Below are positions 3,640-26,971 of a stretch of DNA of 33,110 nucleotides, in pieces. Each line of letters starts with the position of its first letter. Within the stretch, counting starts at the first letter, position 1. The DNA lies in IMG/VR virus record IMGVR_UViG_3300034064_001092, positions 1 through 33,110 of that record; one strand, written 5' to 3'. Source of the DNA: a virus. Below the pieces are notes generated by a model. It had not been told where the DNA came from, did no database searches, and saw only the letters and a program-made list of their open reading frames with translations. The position numbers were made by a program, and so were the translations under genes.

Positions 3640-4122
3640 ATGGTTCAAGAATCAAAAGCCGACCGATTGGAACGGATGCGGGTCAATCTGCAATCGCCAC
3701 AATCCAAGATCTTCACCCAAATGGTGCGAACCGCACGAGGTGATTCACGGGCATTGGCTGGTGTCGCATACGCCCACGAGCGGCTTGGTCTGCCCGCATC
3801 GTGGTTGCGCGAACGGATGGCTGGCCGCATTCGCGTCAAACCGTTGGACATTGAAATCCTCGATCGGGTCATTGACATCGCCAAATCAACCCCGAACGGT
3901 GTGGCGTTGAACATTGAGCGTGACCCCACCCAATCGGCGGAGGTCGGGGAATATCGTCGGGCGGTTGCGAAGATGTGCCGTGAATGCGCTCCCGCTCCGG
4001 CAAAAGGTCAAGACCAGCAATGCCCCGATGGACAATGCCCATTGCGCCCCGTGTCCCCGTTGGAATTGCACCCACGCGCACACCGAAACCCACCGATTGT
4101 CGGGAAGGACTGGGCGCGCTAG
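3640..4122 (+). CDS. Hypothetical protein with C-terminal cysteine motif
   Basis: A 160-aa protein. ATG 3640 has an ideal SD (GGAGGA, 4 bases away). The N-terminal two thirds are helical (ADRLERMRVNLQSPQSKIFTQMVRTARGDSRALAGVAYAHERLGLP) and could include a DNA-binding helical bundle. The C-terminal third has CREC, then CPDGQCPLRPVSPL, giving four cysteines likely to bind one zinc. A C..C ... C...CPLRPVSPL ending is familiar from other phage hypotheticals but has no assigned function. Its TAG stop also forms the first half of the -10 box (TAGAAT) of the next promoter. Confidence 0.65.
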   Translation: MVQESKADRLERMRVNLQSPQSKIFTQMVRTARGDSRALAGVAYAHERLGLPASWLRERMAGRIRVKPLDIEILDRVIDIAKSTPNGVALNIERDPTQSAEVGEYRRAVAKMCRECAPAPAKGQDQQCPDGQCPLRPVSPLELHPRAHRNPPIVGKDWAR

Positions 4123-4125
4123 AAT
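4097..4125 (+). promoter_or_regulatory. Promoter TTGTCG-17-TAGAAT
   Basis: TTGTCG (4097-4102), a 17-base spacer and TAGAAT (4120-4125) form a good sigma-70/SigA-type promoter. The -10 box begins with the TAG stop codon of the upstream gene. A start near 4132 would give a leader of about 27 bases with SD AAGGGGG before ATG 4159. Confidence 0.6.
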
Positions 4126-7435: not shown

Positions 7436-8876
7436 AGGCGAAACGGTTGCGACATTCATTGAATCATTTTGCCGTCTGACCAAGGGGGACACGGCTGGTG
7501 AATTGATCAAATTGCGGCCGTGGCAACGCGAGATTCTCAACGACATATTCGCCCACCGCGAAGATGGTCGCCGCAAATATCGTCGCGGCTTGTTGTTGAT
7601 GCCGCGCAAGCAAGGCAAAAGTCTGCTCGCTGCGGGCATCGCGTTGTTTTCGCTGTTCACGGAAATCGGAGCAGAAGTCGCCATCGTCGCGGGCGACCGC
7701 GCCCAAGCGCGCATCATCTTCCGGGAATGCGCTCGGATGGTGCAATTGGATCCCGTGTTGTCGCGCAAATTGCACGTGTTGCGGGATGTGATCGAATACG
7801 CGGAAACGGGTTCGGTGTTGCGCGTGCTGTCATCCGAAGCGTCGCGCGCGGAAGGCTACAACTTCTCAACCGTGTTGTTTGATGAAGTCCATGTGCAACC
7901 AGACGACCGATTGTGGGCGACCGTCAATCTAGGATCTGGGACGCGCAAAAACCCGCTCGTGCTCGGCATTTCAACGGCGGGTTCCAAGAGCGATTCACGC
8001 GGCCAAGATTCGTTGTGCTACAAGTTGTGGCAATACGGTCGGCGTATTGAATCCGGCGAAATCCAAGACGAGCAATTCTATTTCCGTTGGTTCACCGCCC
8101 CCGAAAATCTGGAATGGGATTCGGTGGAAGCGGCGAAAGCGGCAAATCCGGCGTGGGGTGATTTCCTTGACCCCGAAGATTTCACATCGGCCGCGCGGTC
8201 GCTGCCGCGTGACGAGTTTGAAACCAAGCGTTTGAATAGGTGGATCGCGCGTTCAACATCGTGGTTGCCAACGGGATCGTTTGAACGGTTGCAGACCGAC
8301 CGACGATTGATTCCGGGCGAGCCAATCGTTGCAGCGTTTGACGGCTCATTCGATGGTGACTGCACCGTGCTTGTTGGGGCGACGATGGACGGTCACATTG
8401 AGCCGCTGTTGTTGTTTGAGCGACCGCTAGACGACCCGCATTGGCGCGTTGACATTGGCGAAGTGGAAGCGGCGATCCTTGAAATCGCCACCAAATTCCA
8501 AATCGTTGAATTGGCGGCCGACCCGTTCCGTTGGTCACGGTCGTTGGAAGCGTTGGAAAACGCCGGATTGAATGTGGTTCATTTCCCGCAAAGTCCTTCA
8601 AGGATGGTGGCTGCCTGTCAACGCTACTTCGAGGCGGTGACCCAAGAAGAAATTCATTGGGGCGGCGAATCACATTTGACCGCGGCGATGGTCCGGCATT
8701 TCCAGAATGCCGCCGTGAAGACGGATCGGTTCGGCCCTCGCATCGTCAAAGAACATCGCGGGTCTGCCCGCAAGATTGACCTCGCCGTTGCTGCTACGAT
8801 GGCACTTGACCGGGCGCGCTATTATGCGACGGAGGCGGCAAAACCCGCCAGAAGCGTGGAGTTTCATAGCCTATGA
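7371..8876 (+). CDS. Terminase large subunit (HK97-type)
   Basis: A 501-aa protein with GTG start 7371, preceded by AAGGGGG. The N-terminal ATPase has LRPWQREILNDIFAH, a Walker A-like MPRKQGKS at residues 77-84, and Walker B with catalytic Glu in TVLFDEVH (167-174). GISTAGS follows as the coupling motif. The C-terminal nuclease reads VAAFDGSFDGDCTVLVGATMDGHIEPL with the first acidic cluster, then ELAADPFRW, and KIDLAVAATMALDRA as the final acidic strand. It packages DNA through the portal. The length is close to the usual 450-560 aa. Confidence 0.95.
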   Translation: MTKQTRQRQNSTRSSVPPVAPEGETVATFIESFCRLTKGDTAGELIKLRPWQREILNDIFAHREDGRRKYRRGLLLMPRKQGKSLLAAGIALFSLFTEIGAEVAIVAGDRAQARIIFRECARMVQLDPVLSRKLHVLRDVIEYAETGSVLRVLSSEASRAEGYNFSTVLFDEVHVQPDDRLWATVNLGSGTRKNPLVLGISTAGSKSDSRGQDSLCYKLWQYGRRIESGEIQDEQFYFRWFTAPENLEWDSVEAAKAANPAWGDFLDPEDFTSAARSLPRDEFETKRLNRWIARSTSWLPTGSFERLQTDRRLIPGEPIVAAFDGSFDGDCTVLVGATMDGHIEPLLLFERPLDDPHWRVDIGEVEAAILEIATKFQIVELAADPFRWSRSLEALENAGLNVVHFPQSPSRMVAACQRYFEAVTQEEIHWGGESHLTAAMVRHFQNAAVKTDRFGPRIVKEHRGSARKIDLAVAATMALDRARYYATEAAKPARSVEFHSL

Positions 8877-10625: not shown

Positions 10626-11830
10626 TGCCAATCAATCCAGACGGCTACGAGCCGACCGCGGCAATGCGGGAAGAAGCGGAACGCGGCTTGGAATGGCGGC
10701 GCGAATACGGTCGCGGCGGCACGGAGGTTGGGGTTGCGCGTGCGCGCGACATTTCCAATGGCAAGCGTCTGCCCTATGAAACGGTCGTTCGGATGAATTC
10801 ATATTTCGCACGCCACACGGTTGACAAGCAAGCCGAAGGTTTCCGTCCGGGCGAAGACGGCTTCCCGTCCGCGGGTCGGGTCGCGTGGGCGTTATGGGGT
10901 GGCGACGCTGGCGAACGCTGGGCTGCGGCTATCATTGACGCGGCCGATGAAAACGGCGATCGAATGAGAAGCAAAGGGGATGACATGGCAATCGAATTCC
11001 GAACCGCTGCGGTCGAACTCCGCGCTGTTGATGAAACGGGAATGACATTTGAAGGATATGCCGCGCTGTACGATTCGCCGTCTGACACGGGGGTCGCGCC
11101 AGAAATCATCAAGCCCGGAGCATTCCGCCGATCATTGGCCGCCGCCGAACGCGGTGAATGGGATGTGAAGGCATATCAAGACCACAACCCAGAATTGCTA
11201 CTTGGCACAACCAAGTCCGGCACGCTAACGCTTGACGACGATGGCAAAGGGTTGCGCGCACGGGTGTCATTGAACCCGAACATTTCGTTCCATCGTGACC
11301 TTGCGGAAATCGTGAAGACGATGGGCAAGTCGCTCGGGATGTCATTCGGCTTCTTCTCAACCAATGCCAACAAGGTGAATGATGAAGGGGTGCGCGAATT
11401 GCGTGATGTCAAGTTGGTCGAGGTGTCCGCGTTGACGGGGCTTGCCCCGTATTATCCCGGAACGATTTCCACCGTTGCCGTCCGGTCGCTTGCATCCGAT
11501 AGCGGGATTGATGTGGCCGCGCTTCGTGAAGCGGTGGTCGCGCTACTCGCCGGAAATATGAATCCAGACCAAGCGAAGGTCATCGCCGATGCGGTCAACG
11601 CCGTCATCGCAGACGACGAATCCGACGCGGCAGAAGGCGAAGCGGAACCAACCGACGAGCCGATGGCGGGCGAAGAAGTCGCCCCAGAAGCCGAGCCGAT
11701 GGACGAGCCAACGGCAGAAGCGGAAACGGAATCGGGCGTGAAGGTGGAAATTGAAATCACGATTCCGCGTGCCGTACCACGAAGCATCCGCGAACGCCAA
11801 ATTGAATTGGCGCGTCGCGCCCTAGACTAA
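10625..11830 (+). CDS. Prohead protease with N-terminal helical domain and acidic tail
   Basis: A 401-aa protein with three parts. Residues 1-~115 form a helical domain (AAMREEAERGLEWRREYGRGGTEVGVARARDISNGKRLP ... FPSAGRVAWALWGGDAGERWA) known from other phage structural proteins. Residues ~121-305 are the HK97 gp4-like U35 serine protease: EFRTAAVELRAV, GYAALYDSPSD, His187 in DHNPELLLGTT, Ser240 in SLGMSFGFF and VSALTGLAPYYPGT. Residues ~340-375 are very acidic (Glu/Asp/Pro/Ala), then a basic ERQIELARRALD end. A strong internal SD and ATG at 10985 could yield the protease alone. It matures the capsid; the acidic tail may help scaffold. Confidence 0.88.
   Translation: MPINPDGYEPTAAMREEAERGLEWRREYGRGGTEVGVARARDISNGKRLPYETVVRMNSYFARHTVDKQAEGFRPGEDGFPSAGRVAWALWGGDAGERWAAAIIDAADENGDRMRSKGDDMAIEFRTAAVELRAVDETGMTFEGYAALYDSPSDTGVAPEIIKPGAFRRSLAAAERGEWDVKAYQDHNPELLLGTTKSGTLTLDDDGKGLRARVSLNPNISFHRDLAEIVKTMGKSLGMSFGFFSTNANKVNDEGVRELRDVKLVEVSALTGLAPYYPGTISTVAVRSLASDSGIDVAALREAVVALLAGNMNPDQAKVIADAVNAVIADDESDAAEGEAEPTDEPMAGEEVAPEAEPMDEPTAEAETESGVKVEIEITIPRAVPRSIRERQIELARRALD
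10974..10987 (+). promoter_or_regulatory. Internal ribosome binding site and in-frame start for protease-only form
   Basis: AAAGGGGA (10974-10981) sits a few bases before ATG 10985, in frame at codon 121 exactly between the N-terminal domain and the protease domain. Initiation here would make a 281-aa protein starting MAIEFRTAAVELR, the usual start of a stand-alone prohead protease. Confidence 0.45.
11802..11828 (+). promoter_or_regulatory. Weak candidate promoter before capsid gene
   Basis: TTGAAT (11802-11807), 15 bases and TAGACT (11823-11828) overlap the protease stop codon. The spacer is shorter than ideal. It would give a capsid leader of about 100 bases (11831-11936) that holds no gene and only weak stems. 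Confidence 0.3.
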
Positions 11831-11936
11831 AAAAACCGAAGCGCAAGGGCAGATCCGCAAAGGGCGAAAGCACCGCCGGACGCGTACCACCGCGATGGTG
11901 ATTGATAAAAAACCGAATAGCGAAAGGGGAATCATC

Positions 11937-13127
11937 GTGTCAAATGAACTGATGAACCGCCTCCATTCTGCATATCGGACGGATTTTGAGGCTGCAAAGG
12001 GTCTAATCACCCGCGCCGCTGATGAGGCTCGCGAACTTTCCGCAGAGGAAAGCGTGACCTATGACCGTCTGAACGAGCAGATGGATGCAAAGTTGGAGCA
12101 GATTAACGATTTGAAGAAGGGCGAAGAGCGTGCCGCAAAGTTGGCCACGATCATCGGCGATCTTGAAGTCACATCTGCAAAGCCATTGAACAATGATGCG
12201 GATGTTCTCCGCGCCATCATCAACGGCGAGAAGCGTTCCGCGAATTTTGAAGTTCGTGCGCTTGCGACGGCAACGGCAACAACGCCTGTCACATTCGCCG
12301 ACTTCCTCGTGGAGCAGTTGGTCGAGGGGAACCCTGTCTATGAGGGCGCATCCAAGATCCGCACAACCGACATCCGAAATATCACCGTTCCTGTCATGGC
12401 GGGAACCGCACCAAGCGCGGCTTTCGTTTCGCAGGGCGGAACGATTTCGGCTTCGGATCCGGTCTTCACCAGCATCACGCTCGGCGCATACGCCGCGGCA
12501 ACCTTGACGCTCGCGTCACGGGAGTTGGTTGATTCGGCTGGCTTCAATCTGGTGGAATATGTTGGCCGCGCGGCGGGCAACCAGATCGCATATCTCGCGG
12601 GTTCGGCGTGTACGCTCGGAACCGGAACGGTGCAGCCAACGGGCTTCGTGTCCGCGCTGACCACGGCTGGTGCGCTCACGACGGCAACGAAGTCGGGGAC
12701 GGTCACATCGACCTTCTTCGATGTCCTTGACCTGAACGCTGCGCTATATGCGCTCACTCCAAAATATAGGAACGCCAACACCGTGTGGCAGATCTCAACG
12801 GGCGCGGCTCGCAAGGTTCGCGGTCTTCAAGATCTGAACGGGCAGTTCATTTGGCAGCCAGCCGTCGCGGCCGGTGCGCCAGAAACCCTGCTCGGCTACC
12901 GCGTCAAGGAGAATGTGCATATGGCGGCGGTGGCTTCGGCTTCCAAGTCCGTTGCAATCATTCACGAGCCGTCGTTCTATATCCGCGAAGCGGGTGGTGT
13001 TGAAGTGGCCACATCGAGCGAACGCTACTTCGAGATCAATAGCATCGGCATTCGCACGATCTACCATTTTGATTCGGCGCTGCCGGACGGATTGGCTGGT
13101 CGGGTGCTCGTTTCCGCCAACTCATAA
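11937..13127 (+). CDS. Major capsid protein, HK97 fold
   Basis: A 396-aa protein. I chose GTG 11937 because AAAGGGGA lies 6 bases upstream; the ATG at 11895 has no SD. Residues 1-~85 are a coiled-coil delta-type scaffold domain (LITRAADEARELSAEESVTYDRLNEQMDAKLEQINDLKKGEERAAKL). The HK97 fold follows: VTFADFLVEQLVEGNPVYEGASKIRTTDIRNITVPVMAGT, ATLTLASRELVDSAGFNLVEYVGRAAGNQIAYLAGSA and ERYFEINSIGIRTIYHFDS. The protease at 10625 probably removes the delta domain. By eye it uses CTC/CTT/CTG leucine codons more than its neighbours, which prefer TTG, as expected for the most expressed gene. A strong terminator follows. Confidence 0.93.
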   Translation: MSNELMNRLHSAYRTDFEAAKGLITRAADEARELSAEESVTYDRLNEQMDAKLEQINDLKKGEERAAKLATIIGDLEVTSAKPLNNDADVLRAIINGEKRSANFEVRALATATATTPVTFADFLVEQLVEGNPVYEGASKIRTTDIRNITVPVMAGTAPSAAFVSQGGTISASDPVFTSITLGAYAAATLTLASRELVDSAGFNLVEYVGRAAGNQIAYLAGSACTLGTGTVQPTGFVSALTTAGALTTATKSGTVTSTFFDVLDLNAALYALTPKYRNANTVWQISTGAARKVRGLQDLNGQFIWQPAVAAGAPETLLGYRVKENVHMAAVASASKSVAIIHEPSFYIREAGGVEVATSSERYFEINSIGIRTIYHFDSALPDGLAGRVLVSANS

Positions 13128-13156
13128 TTGGCAATCTTCCTCGGGTGAGGTAGAAT
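13128..13156 (+). promoter_or_regulatory. Promoter TTGGCA-17-TAGAAT overlapping a terminator
   Basis: TTGGCA (13128-13133), a 17-base spacer and TAGAAT (13151-13156) follow the capsid stop codon directly. The expected start (about 13163) lies inside the left arm of the terminator hairpin at 13158-13191. Confidence 0.75.
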
Positions 13157-13157
13157 C

Positions 13158-13199
13158 GTCCGAGCGTCGCCCATCTGGGTGACGCTCGGACTTTTATTT
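13158..13199 (+). terminator. Strong intrinsic terminator after capsid
   Basis: GTCCGAGCGTC (13158-13168) pairs perfectly with GACGCTCGGAC (13181-13191). The stem continues inward through GCCC/GGGT (one G-U pair) to a 4-base loop, about 15 bp in all. TTTTATTT (13192-13199) follows. It is the strongest terminator in the window. Confidence 0.88.
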
Positions 13200-13212
13200 G
13201 GAGGGTGAGGCA

Positions 13213-14454
13213 ATGACGCTCCGCATCGCTTGGTCAAGCAATGCCCCTTGGACGGGCTCGGGATATGGCGTGCAGACCGCCGAAATTGTTCCGCGCTTGG
13301 TTGCAGACGGCCACGAAGTCGCGATTCTCGCAAATCACGGGCTTGCGGGTTCAATCATCAATTGGGGCAATCCGCCCGTCCCCGTATTCCCGCAAGGGAT
13401 TGACGCGTATTCAAACGATGTCCACCCCGCGCAGATTGCAAACCACATCGGTGACCAGCAGCATCGCGGGCTGGGGGTCACATTGTTTGATGTCTGGGTT
13501 TTCAAAGCCCCGCAATGGGACGAAGTTCCGTTGCTGTGTTGGACACCGATTGACCACAATCCCGTGACACCGGAAGTGTCTGCATTCTTCAATCGTCCGG
13601 GTCGCAAATGGGCGTTGGCGATGTCGAAGTTTGGCGAACAAGCGTTGCTTGATTCTGGCGTTTCGCGCGAACGCGTATTCTACGCGCCGCATTCATACGA
13701 CCCGAACATCTTCAAGCCAGAAGGCGAAACGATGCGGGAGAAAATGCAGATCCCCGCGGATGCACATGTGACGATGATGAATGCCGCGAACAAGGGAAAC
13801 ACCCCTATTCGGAAGTGCTTCCCGGAGAATCTGGCCGCGTGGTCGGAATTCGCACGGCGACACGACGACGCGTTCCTATACCTTCACACCGAAGCGTCCG
13901 GGATCGCCAATGGCGTGAACATCCATCGGTTGTTGAAAGCGGTGGGAGCGCCAGAAAAGCAAGTCCGCATCGTTCCGCAATTTGAATATCGAATGGGCAT
14001 TTCCGCGCAGACGGTCGCGGCATTGATTCGATCAAGCGATGTGCTGCTGGCCACCGCACGCGGGGAAGGCTTCGGCGTGCCAACGCTTGAAGCCCAAGCC
14101 ACGGGCGTTCCGGTCATCGTCACGAATTGGACGGCATCCCCGGAATTGGTCGGTCACGGGTGGATCGTTGACGGTCAAAAAGAATGGGACGAATTCCAAG
14201 CGTCGTTCTGGAAGTTGCCATCGGTTGACGGCATCATTGACGCGCTTGAACAATCGTATGCATTGAAGGGTGACACGGCACGGCTGGCAGAAGCCCGCGC
14301 CGCATCCATCAAATTCGCGGAACCATACCAGACCGACAATGTGTTTGCGACCCATTGGCGACCAATCTTGGGTTCAATGGAAACCATATTGGCCGAAGGC
14401 ATCAAACCGATCAATCGTGAACAACGGCGTGCCGCCGTAAGGGGGAAGCGATGA
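13213..14454 (+). CDS. Glycosyltransferase, GT4-like (GT-B fold)
   Basis: A 413-aa protein from ATG 13213 with SD GGAGGGTGAGG. The N-terminus MTLRIAWSSNAPWTGSGYGVQTAEIVPRLVADGHEVAIL is the nucleotide-sugar GT-B start, with a glycine-rich GSGYG loop. The C-terminal half has VRIVPQFEYRMGISAQTVAALIRSSDVLLATARGEGFGVPTLEAQATGVPVIVTNWTASPELVG. This carries the GT4 hallmark GEGFG.P.lEAqA.G.PVi. It probably transfers a sugar to a phage component or to modified DNA. It is the first gene of a three-gene sugar cassette under the promoter at 13128-13156, between capsid and connector genes. Confidence 0.85.
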   Translation: MTLRIAWSSNAPWTGSGYGVQTAEIVPRLVADGHEVAILANHGLAGSIINWGNPPVPVFPQGIDAYSNDVHPAQIANHIGDQQHRGLGVTLFDVWVFKAPQWDEVPLLCWTPIDHNPVTPEVSAFFNRPGRKWALAMSKFGEQALLDSGVSRERVFYAPHSYDPNIFKPEGETMREKMQIPADAHVTMMNAANKGNTPIRKCFPENLAAWSEFARRHDDAFLYLHTEASGIANGVNIHRLLKAVGAPEKQVRIVPQFEYRMGISAQTVAALIRSSDVLLATARGEGFGVPTLEAQATGVPVIVTNWTASPELVGHGWIVDGQKEWDEFQASFWKLPSVDGIIDALEQSYALKGDTARLAEARAASIKFAEPYQTDNVFATHWRPILGSMETILAEGIKPINREQRRAAVRGKR

Positions 14455-14993: not shown

Positions 14994-15682
14994 AGCCGGT
15001 CGTCATTCTGGCCGCGGGACGCGCGACCCGTCTTGGCGGCGTGAACAAATTGCTCGTCACGGCGGGCGGTCTGCCCGTCCACGAATGGCATCGTCGGGCG
15101 TTCGCCGGATCGGACATCTCGATCGTCGTCCACGACCATTCGATTCGTGCGATCGAAGACGAAATCCCGTGGTCGAATGCGGTCATCGGAACCACCAAAT
15201 TCAACGGTCCGGTTGGGGCGTTGGACGCGTATTTGGCGCAGACCAATCAGCGGGACGGCGTGACCGTCGTGTTCGCGGACACGCTTATTCCGCCACAACC
15301 GTTGTCGGCTGGCGATTGGGTGGGCGTTGCGGCCGCCCCAGCCCGTCGGTGGGATATGCCATCGTCACGCGGCCATTGGGTTCGGGGCGTTCCGAAAATC
15401 CCGGTGTGCGTGGGGATCTATTCGTTCGCCGATATGGACGCGCTCCGGGAAGCGGCATTGGCCGCCCATGCGGACGCTGCGAAAATGGGTGACAAGGAAA
15501 CCCCAATGACAATGCTGTTGAACCGATACGGCGCAGACCTCCCGTGGTTCAAAGTGCGCGGATGGCACGACGCGGGTGATCCCGCCGCCGTCGCTTCCGT
15601 CCCAGATTGGGAATCGGTTGTCGCCGCACGCGATCAGATCGCAAGTGTGGAGGGGACGCTTGATGCGCGTTGGACGCGCTAG
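14990..15682 (+). CDS. Sugar nucleotidyltransferase (NTP-transferase fold)
   Basis: A 230-aa protein. GTG 14990 overlaps the previous stop (GTGA), as in many genes here, and gives MKPVVILAAGRATRLGGVNKLLVTAGGLPV. That is the nucleotide-binding signature LAAG.gtRlg...K.l of sugar-nucleotidyltransferases and MobA-like enzymes. ATG 14969 would add seven residues. Later segments include NGPVGALDAYLA, VVFADTLI (the metal-binding D), VPVCVGIYSF and KVRGWHDAGDPAAVASV (D near the product site). It probably makes the activated sugar for the two upstream glycosyltransferases. Its TAG stop forms the start of a TAGAAT box. Confidence 0.8.
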   Translation: MKPVVILAAGRATRLGGVNKLLVTAGGLPVHEWHRRAFAGSDISIVVHDHSIRAIEDEIPWSNAVIGTTKFNGPVGALDAYLAQTNQRDGVTVVFADTLIPPQPLSAGDWVGVAAAPARRWDMPSSRGHWVRGVPKIPVCVGIYSFADMDALREAALAAHADAAKMGDKETPMTMLLNRYGADLPWFKVRGWHDAGDPAAVASVPDWESVVAARDQIASVEGTLDARWTR

Positions 15683-15685
15683 AAT
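15659..15685 (+). promoter_or_regulatory. Candidate promoter with -10 TAGAAT before the connector genes
   Basis: TAGAAT (15680-15685) begins with the stop codon of the nucleotidyltransferase, in the same gcgcTAGAATc context as at 4120. CTTGAT (15659-15664) with a 15-base spacer is the only -35-like sequence, so recognition may rely on the -10. Confidence 0.4.
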
Positions 15686-25888: not shown

Positions 25889-26931
25889 CGAAGTTTGATG
25901 ACGCGTTGGAAGACGCGAAGATGGCCGATCAATTGTCCGATCTGAAAACCGCCCACATGCGGACGCTGCGCCAATTGGAAAAATCCAAACGGTCGCAAGA
26001 CGAATTGGTGGAAGCCGTCTATCAAGCGGCAAAGGATGCCGCGATGGGAATGAACATCACGCCCGTCCCAACACCGAAACCGGACAAGCGCAAACTTGCG
26101 CCAGAAGCGGCCATCCTGCTGCTCGCTGATTGGCAAGTGGGGAAAGTGACCCCGACATATTCGTCCGATGTTGCCGCCGAACGCGTCAAAATCTTGGCGA
26201 AGAAGGTTCAAAAGTTGGTGGCGATTCAACGCGCGGATCATCCCGTTCGCGAATTGCACATTTTTTTGTTGGGCGATTTGGTCGAAGGTGAGGACATCTT
26301 CCCCGGTCAAGCGCATTTGATTGATGGCGGATTGTATTCGCAGATCTTCCAGACCGCGGAGATGTTGGCAGGGTTGGTGCGAACGCTGGCCGCAGAATTT
26401 GAAACGGTCAATGTCGTTGGTGTCATTGGCAATCATGGACGAATGGGGCGATTCGGTTCCGTTCGACCTGAAAGCAATGCCGATGCCATCGCATACCGGA
26501 CGGCATCAATGATCGTGGCGAACGAGCCGCGAATCAAATGGAAGGAAACCTTCACCAAGGGCGAACGCCATTGGCACGAATACGTGAATGTGCTTGGCCG
26601 TAAGTGGTTGCTATTCCACGGGGAGCAATTGAAGGGCGGGTCGTTCGGGTTTCCGTGGTATTCGCTCGCCAAGCGTTTGTCGGGATGGGCGCTGGCATTG
26701 GATGGCGGGAAACCTGACTATGCAGCCTTCGGCCATTGGCACACGCCCGTTCGGGTCGTTGCCGCGGATGGACGGATCACCGCATTCGGTTGTGGTTCCA
26801 TTGAATCCTCGAACACATATGCGCAGGAGTGGGTGGCTGCGTCCGGCGAGCCAGCCCAATGGCTGCTTTTCCAAACGCCATCTGGTTTGTCTGCGGAGTA
26901 CCTCATCCGTTTGGAAGATCCGACCAAGTAA
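25885..26931 (+). CDS. Metallophosphoesterase (calcineurin-like)
   Basis: A 348-aa protein from ATG 25885 with GGGAGG upstream. Residues 1-60 are a helical, charged N-terminus (DALEDAKMADQLSDLKTAHMRTLRQLEKS). The catalytic part has LLLADWQVGKVTP as the D-x-Q/H entry, HIFLLGDLVEGE for GD..d, VIGNHGRMGR for GNH(D/E), WLLFHGEQ for the second His and FGHWHTPVR for the GHxH. It is related to Mre11/SbcD-type phosphoesterases, but shorter and without the capping domains. A role in DNA end or nucleotide processing is inferred. It is the last gene before the structured hub. Confidence 0.8.
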   Translation: MTKFDDALEDAKMADQLSDLKTAHMRTLRQLEKSKRSQDELVEAVYQAAKDAAMGMNITPVPTPKPDKRKLAPEAAILLLADWQVGKVTPTYSSDVAAERVKILAKKVQKLVAIQRADHPVRELHIFLLGDLVEGEDIFPGQAHLIDGGLYSQIFQTAEMLAGLVRTLAAEFETVNVVGVIGNHGRMGRFGSVRPESNADAIAYRTASMIVANEPRIKWKETFTKGERHWHEYVNVLGRKWLLFHGEQLKGGSFGFPWYSLAKRLSGWALALDGGKPDYAAFGHWHTPVRVVAADGRITAFGCGSIESSNTYAQEWVAASGEPAQWLLFQTPSGLSAEYLIRLEDPTK

Positions 26932-26942
26932 ACTTTGCAATC

Positions 26943-26971
26943 TGCCGCTGGGGTGCCTCCCCCCAGCGGCA
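26943..26971. other. Perfect 11-bp hairpin after the phosphoesterase
   Basis: TGCCGCTGGGG (26943-26953) and CCCCAGCGGCA (26961-26971) with a 7-base loop lie 11 bases after the stop codon. No U-tract follows (AACCCATC), so it may be an mRNA 3' end stabiliser or part of a terminator pair with 26993-27014. Confidence 0.55.

Follow-up and report, generated by a model that had tools for sequence, protein, structure and literature searches.

The window, by which we mean the whole stretch of DNA that was analysed, is a single environmental virus record of 33,110 bases. The junction considered here lies between the major capsid protein (MCP) gene and a glycosyltransferase gene, which are separated by 85 bases comprising TTGGCA-17-TAGAAT, one C, a hairpin of 15 pairs, the T-tract TTTTATTT and GGAGG. 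The features are as follows.

11895-13127, plus strand: MCP gene, HK97 type, in the upstream transcription unit (PF05065, E 7.9e-42; phrog_10, E 1.1e-48)
13128-13133, plus strand: -35-like hexamer TTGGCA, immediately 3' of the MCP stop codon (unchanged in L005 and L006, unrecognisable in most other relatives)
13149-13156, plus strand: GG and the -10-like hexamer TAGAAT (GGTAGAAT), the hexamer itself at 13151-13156 (14-sequence junction alignment)
13158-13172, plus strand: left arm of the hairpin, of which 13158-13162 would be absent from an RNA begun at 13163 (sequence and fold)
13163, plus strand: predicted transcription start, an A, the seventh base past the -10 box (spacing as in the TAnnnT-N6-ATG of clade V)
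13163-13186, plus strand: shortened 10-bp hairpin, expected 5' end of the glycosyltransferase mRNA (fold, -18.5 kcal/mol)
13177-13191, plus strand: right arm of the hairpin (sequence and fold)
13192-13199, plus strand: T-tract TTTTATTT (sequence)
13200-13204, plus strand: ribosome-binding site GGAGG, just 3' of the expected end of a terminated capsid RNA (sequence)
13213-14454, plus strand: glycosyltransferase (GT4) gene, the first gene of a sugar cassette (phrog_2170, E 6.6e-33; PF13692)

As stated in a preliminary description of this DNA, TTGGCA-17-TAGAAT (13128-13156) is present and ends one base before the hairpin (13158-13191). No other sequence in the whole 33,110-base window, whichever strand is read, reaches 10/12 against TTGACA/TATAAT at a spacing of 16-18. 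Looser 9/12 matches were not enriched between positions 8000 and 20000 (8 versus 5.8 +/- 2.3 in shuffles), and hence the hexamer match is weak by itself and the case for a promoter rests on conservation. TAGAAT fits the TAnnnT form of the -10 element of promoters read by the housekeeping sigma factor (sigma70/SigA), and the -10 consensus for SigA of M. smegmatis is given as TANNNT in one report (PMC6448022). The closest isolates to the window, as judged by the terminase, are actinobacterial phages. The possibility that further copies of the box act as general phage promoters was considered and rejected, as 18 records yielded few copies of GTAGANTC (0-6 per contig) and the window includes few plus-strand copies of TAGAAT. 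The other two (4120-4125 and 15680-15685) share bases with the TAG stop codons of genes ending there and have similar contexts (GCGCGCTAGAATC and ACGCGCTAGAATC).

The hairpin has a GC-rich stem and the loop ATCT. It had been described as perfect over approximately 15 bp with a T-rich tail, and the 15 pairs and the tail TTTTATTT are there, but 14 of the pairs are Watson-Crick and one is G-T, making it nearly perfect. The complete structure folds with -32.8 kcal/mol (z -9.1), a value equalled by none of 200 shuffles, and so has the stability and GC content of an intrinsic terminator. The U-tract that should directly follow the stem of such a terminator is found in the window, and in many relatives it is weak or missing. 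By our own score this is the top-scoring hairpin in the window (39.5), yet one of ten shuffled 33-kb windows reached 40. A search of Rfam at gathering thresholds did not assign it to a known RNA family. A bidirectional terminator, with the box serving as the A-tract partner of the T-tail, was rejected because the box is retained in relatives that lack such pairing and because the minus strand has no T-run past the hairpin.

In order to examine conservation, viral contigs were collected using the MCP as query, which gave 39, and then the MCP alignment as query, which gave 80 of 106, and 58 distinct MCP-glycosyltransferase junctions were compared. The two relatives at 94 % (L005 and L006) differ from the window at five and three positions, respectively, all of them in the loop of the hairpin or between the -35 and -10 hexamers, and there is no difference in the hexamers, the stem, the T-tract or the ribosome-binding site. 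In clade I, which includes the window (MCP 64-100 %), a TAGACT/TAGAAT-like box and a hairpin are -1 to 6 nt apart in 26 of 26 distinct junctions when outer pairs are counted, with TAnnnT in 24 and TAGACG in two. The hairpin sequences turn over between lineages and the box stays. When 14 clade I junctions were aligned with MAFFT, three positions alone were invariant, a T and an A in the box and a single T in the tail region. Four more bases of the box (G, G, A and T) were nearly so. Within this 14-sequence alignment, no part of the junction is better conserved than the -10-like box. Variants of the box (TAGTAT, TAAACT, TAGAGT, TAGCCT and TACCAT) share just the TAnnnT skeleton. At 16-18 nt from the box, TTGGCA matches the -35 consensus at five of six positions in the window, L005 and L006, and the other relatives match at two to four of six.

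Beyond clade I the arrangement is found again in clade IV (MCP 31-33 %), where TAACCT, TAGCCT, TACCAT, TAGCAT or TAGTAT stands at the foot of a different hairpin in all ten junctions. In clade II (MCP 59 %), TAGAGT is set against a hairpin that has no T-tract in three of four junctions, and the fourth (L084) has TAGGTT. The six distinct junctions of clade III (L085-L096; MCP 52-54 %) have a hairpin with neither T-tract nor box. Since the T-tract is missing, the hairpin of clades II and III is probably not a classical terminator. Seven further distinct junctions have a hairpin and no box. The preliminary description had proposed looking for the same overlap in related phages, and a box stands next to the hairpin in clades I and IV (26/26 and 10/10) and is missing from L085-L096 and the seven other junctions. 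It had also named the absence of the promoter from relatives that keep the hairpin as evidence against the proposal, and for those clades this is what was found. Clade V, which includes the Pontimonas phage phiPsal1, has a terminator followed by TAnnnT-N6-ATG at the start of the glycosyltransferase gene in five of five junctions, a combination seen in none of the 53 others. This would be a leaderless promoter that replaces the box in the arm, and a promoter for the glycosyltransferase would thus recur at the MCP-glycosyltransferase junction. Clade V and the window share the junction, the gene pair and the requirement that the capsid gene be insulated and transcription of the glycosyltransferase be started, but in clade V the terminator comes first and the promoter second, and no overlap with an arm is needed.

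Adjacency of box and hairpin was found in 12 of 24 lineage clusters versus 3.1 expected from dinucleotide shuffles of the spacers, and none of 20,000 simulations was as high, though the lineages share ancestry. The deepest split of the MCP tree has the box-in-arm arrangement on either side of it, this arrangement requires four changes, and the layout of terminator followed by leaderless promoter forms one clade. Hence, the geometry is not a one-off. The retained TAnnnT skeleton, the SigA consensus, the actinobacterial affinity of the nearest phages and the predicted leaderless promoter of clade V together argue for a candidate housekeeping-sigma promoter, and the poor -35 (2-4 of 6) beyond the near relatives of the window argues against one. 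Further relatives were sought by megablast of a phage collection, which returned no related phage DNA, and by a scan of genome contigs with the MCP alignment for a host prophage, which returned no relative. Microcystis phage Mae-JY09 has a related glycosyltransferase and, on inspection by eye, no such hairpin upstream of it. In L076-L083, a stretch that looks non-coding and includes several short inverted repeats, approximately 75-165 nt past the MCP stop codon, replaces the glycosyltransferase start.

The central claim of the preliminary description was that an RNA arriving from the capsid gene would terminate at the hairpin and an RNA started at the overlapping promoter would read through. 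The folding energies it called for behave as predicted, being -32.8, -23.0, -18.5, -18.0 and -13.8 kcal/mol for RNAs starting at 13158, 13162, 13163, 13164 and 13165, respectively. Starts at 13162-13165 cost four to seven basal pairs, and a start at 13163 costs five of the 15, moving the end of the stem to 13186 and leaving five unpaired bases before the T-tract. According to what is established about termination, a hairpin with its base approximately 11 nt away from the 3' end of the RNA would make the polymerase pause and would not release it. Using the published terminator score of d'Aubenton-Carafa, which was fitted to E. coli, the window falls from +46.8 for the full hairpin to -37.1 for the initiated RNA. 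Among the 39 boxed junctions that were scored (of 58), the score flips from positive to negative in 19, stays positive in 12 and is negative both ways in eight. Those that flip include the group of the window, L009, L010, L011, L012, L015, L021, L033, L074 and eight of the ten in clade IV, where the full-hairpin score is +9.8 to +32.1 in 8/10. In five junctions (L018, L020, L022, L025 and L026), the predicted start is at the edge of the stem, so that the hairpin would lose at most one pair and the score is practically unchanged by initiation; hence, nothing is disarmed there. Start-dependent read-through is therefore predicted by the energies and scores of the window and by most of clade IV, but not by the 20 of 39 boxed junctions where there is no flip. 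In silico support for the switch extends to the window and its distant cousins and does not extend to the family as a whole.

From the parts, their geometry, the energies and the conservation, we infer promoter activity, a start site, termination and read-through as follows. The TTGGCA-17-TAGAAT promoter would fill the approximately 30 nt that separate the hairpin from the end of the capsid gene. Judging by the spacing, RNA synthesis would begin at about 13163, within the left arm. RNA derived from the capsid gene would carry the full 15-bp hairpin flush with TTTTATTT and would stop at about 13195-13199, just before the ribosome-binding site of the glycosyltransferase. RNA from about 13163 would have its 5' nucleotide paired in the stem and would keep a 10-bp hairpin with its base 5 nt ahead of the T-tract, at which the polymerase would at most pause before reading into the sugar cassette. 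Where an RNA began would thus decide whether it stops. We give roughly even chances to this reading of the 72-bp junction as a compact insulator with origin-dependent termination and a promoter start inside the left arm. In E. coli, termination is reported to be maximal only when more than 27 nt separate the stop codon from the stem (PMC4824070). This spacing is 30 nt in the window. Across clade I it is 27-44 nt, against 9-17 nt for clade V, so the clade I promoter may occupy a gap that the terminator needed anyway.

The junction resembles an intrinsic (Rho-independent) terminator in its GC-rich 15-bp stem, tetraloop, TTTTATTT and position 30 nt past a stop codon, and differs in that the -10 box abuts the left arm, the predicted start is inside that arm and many relatives have no good T-tract. 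The closest known logic appears to be the protection of IS10 and IS50 from read-through. There, transcripts entering from outside include the whole inverted repeat, in a hairpin that hides the transposase start codon and so acts on translation, and transcripts from the inner promoter start within the repeat and escape. The window would share this dependence on RNA origin, with its predicted start at 13163 within the left arm (13158-13172), but the step controlled would be transcription termination, and the setting is the boundary of two phage units. The GGAGG (13200) and ATG (13213) of the glycosyltransferase lie outside the hairpin, which ends at 13191, and as no translation start is sequestered the window would work alike but is not a member of that group. 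Ingham, Hunter and Smith (1995) reportedly found terminators without poly-U tails in the early region of phiC31. Both those and the present family are intergenic hairpins of actinophage type, some without T-tracts; the window, which has a T-tract, is unlike them, and clades II and III would fit. A scan of the 14 intergenic phiC31 hairpins found a TAnnnT box near the stem in none. A phrase-based search of a collection of open-access papers for promoter-terminator overlap did not find this arrangement described.

The most serious alternative, which we nevertheless consider rather unlikely, is that the promoter is real and the selected feature is a glycosyltransferase mRNA whose 5' end is in or at a stable stem and shielded from decay, with termination of the capsid transcript partial or secondary. 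This would fit the boxed junctions where the switch fails, as gaps of up to 6 nt place the predicted 5' base in or at the stem, including in the five where the start is at the stem edge, and would need no T-tract and so fit clade II. It leaves unexplained the box-less hairpins, and why the junctions that would lose much of the stem, namely the window and the clade IV junctions that score +9.8 or more, have such good T-tracts and score so highly as terminators. Origin-dependent termination is the best account of the window and clade IV; protection of the 5' end fits a larger share of the family, and both may operate together.

An ordinary terminator, or a 3'-protecting hairpin, of the capsid mRNA, with a box that is no promoter and a cassette reached by leaky read-through, is less probable again. 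Nearly all relatives do have a hairpin past the end of the MCP gene, boxed or not, and the -35 is weak in most of them. However, this would not explain why the GGTAGACT block is constant amid changing surroundings, the excess of adjacency over expectation (12/24 lineages), or the TAnnnT-type box and ATG at fixed spacing in clade V, and pairing of the box with the T-tail was found by folding in the group of the window and is absent from most relatives. That the box is half of an operator or some other protein or RNA site, and not a -10 element, is very improbable, as the inverted repeats seen around it by eye in L010, L031 and L074 (GTCTAC-N5-GTAGAC in L010 and L031) are not found in the window and most relatives, and the variants from TAGTAT to TACCAT retain only the -10 TAnnnT skeleton. 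The short inverted repeat in those three relatives might serve as an operator or form another small hairpin.

More tentatively, and with somewhat less confidence than for the window itself, we suggest that this phage family evolved, possibly twice, a terminator that senses RNA origin, stopping capsid RNA and passing RNAs started in the left arm, with the promoter in the ribosome-clearance gap and the hairpin also capping the 5' end of the new mRNA. If so, approximately 70 bp would insulate two transcription units and start the second with the origin of the RNA as the sole signal, a natural protein-free one-way transcription valve that would be useful as a compact part and would illustrate how phages with tightly packed genomes find room for a promoter in the spacing that a terminator requires after a stop codon. 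The natural variants across the family, with a predicted stem loss of 0 to 7 pairs, for example five in L102 and L108, three in L009, one in L027 and none in L022, form a ready test series.

Other hairpins and boxes were seen in these phages. Just ahead of the capsid gene, a 5-bp GC hairpin at 11809-11828 is followed by TAGACT, which is kept in L005 and L006 and not clearly in more distant relatives. A second conserved hairpin (26929-26971; also in G001 and G003-G008) lies directly past the stop codon of a gene ending at 26931. It has no T-tract, and no Rfam match was found for it in the window at the gathering threshold. The stems differ and the loop, GCCTCC, is identical in all eight aligned contigs, and its CCUCC could pair with Shine-Dalgarno sequences. 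TAAACT, TAGAAT or TAAGAT is found 8-9 nt upstream of this second hairpin. Inspection by eye of L009, L016, L022, L025, L027, L031 and L074 revealed good sigma70-like promoters (e.g. TTGACG-17-TAAGAT) 100-250 nt past this hairpin and before the next gene, followed by a conserved GATC[GC]GGGA...CCC[CG]GTGAA-like stretch.
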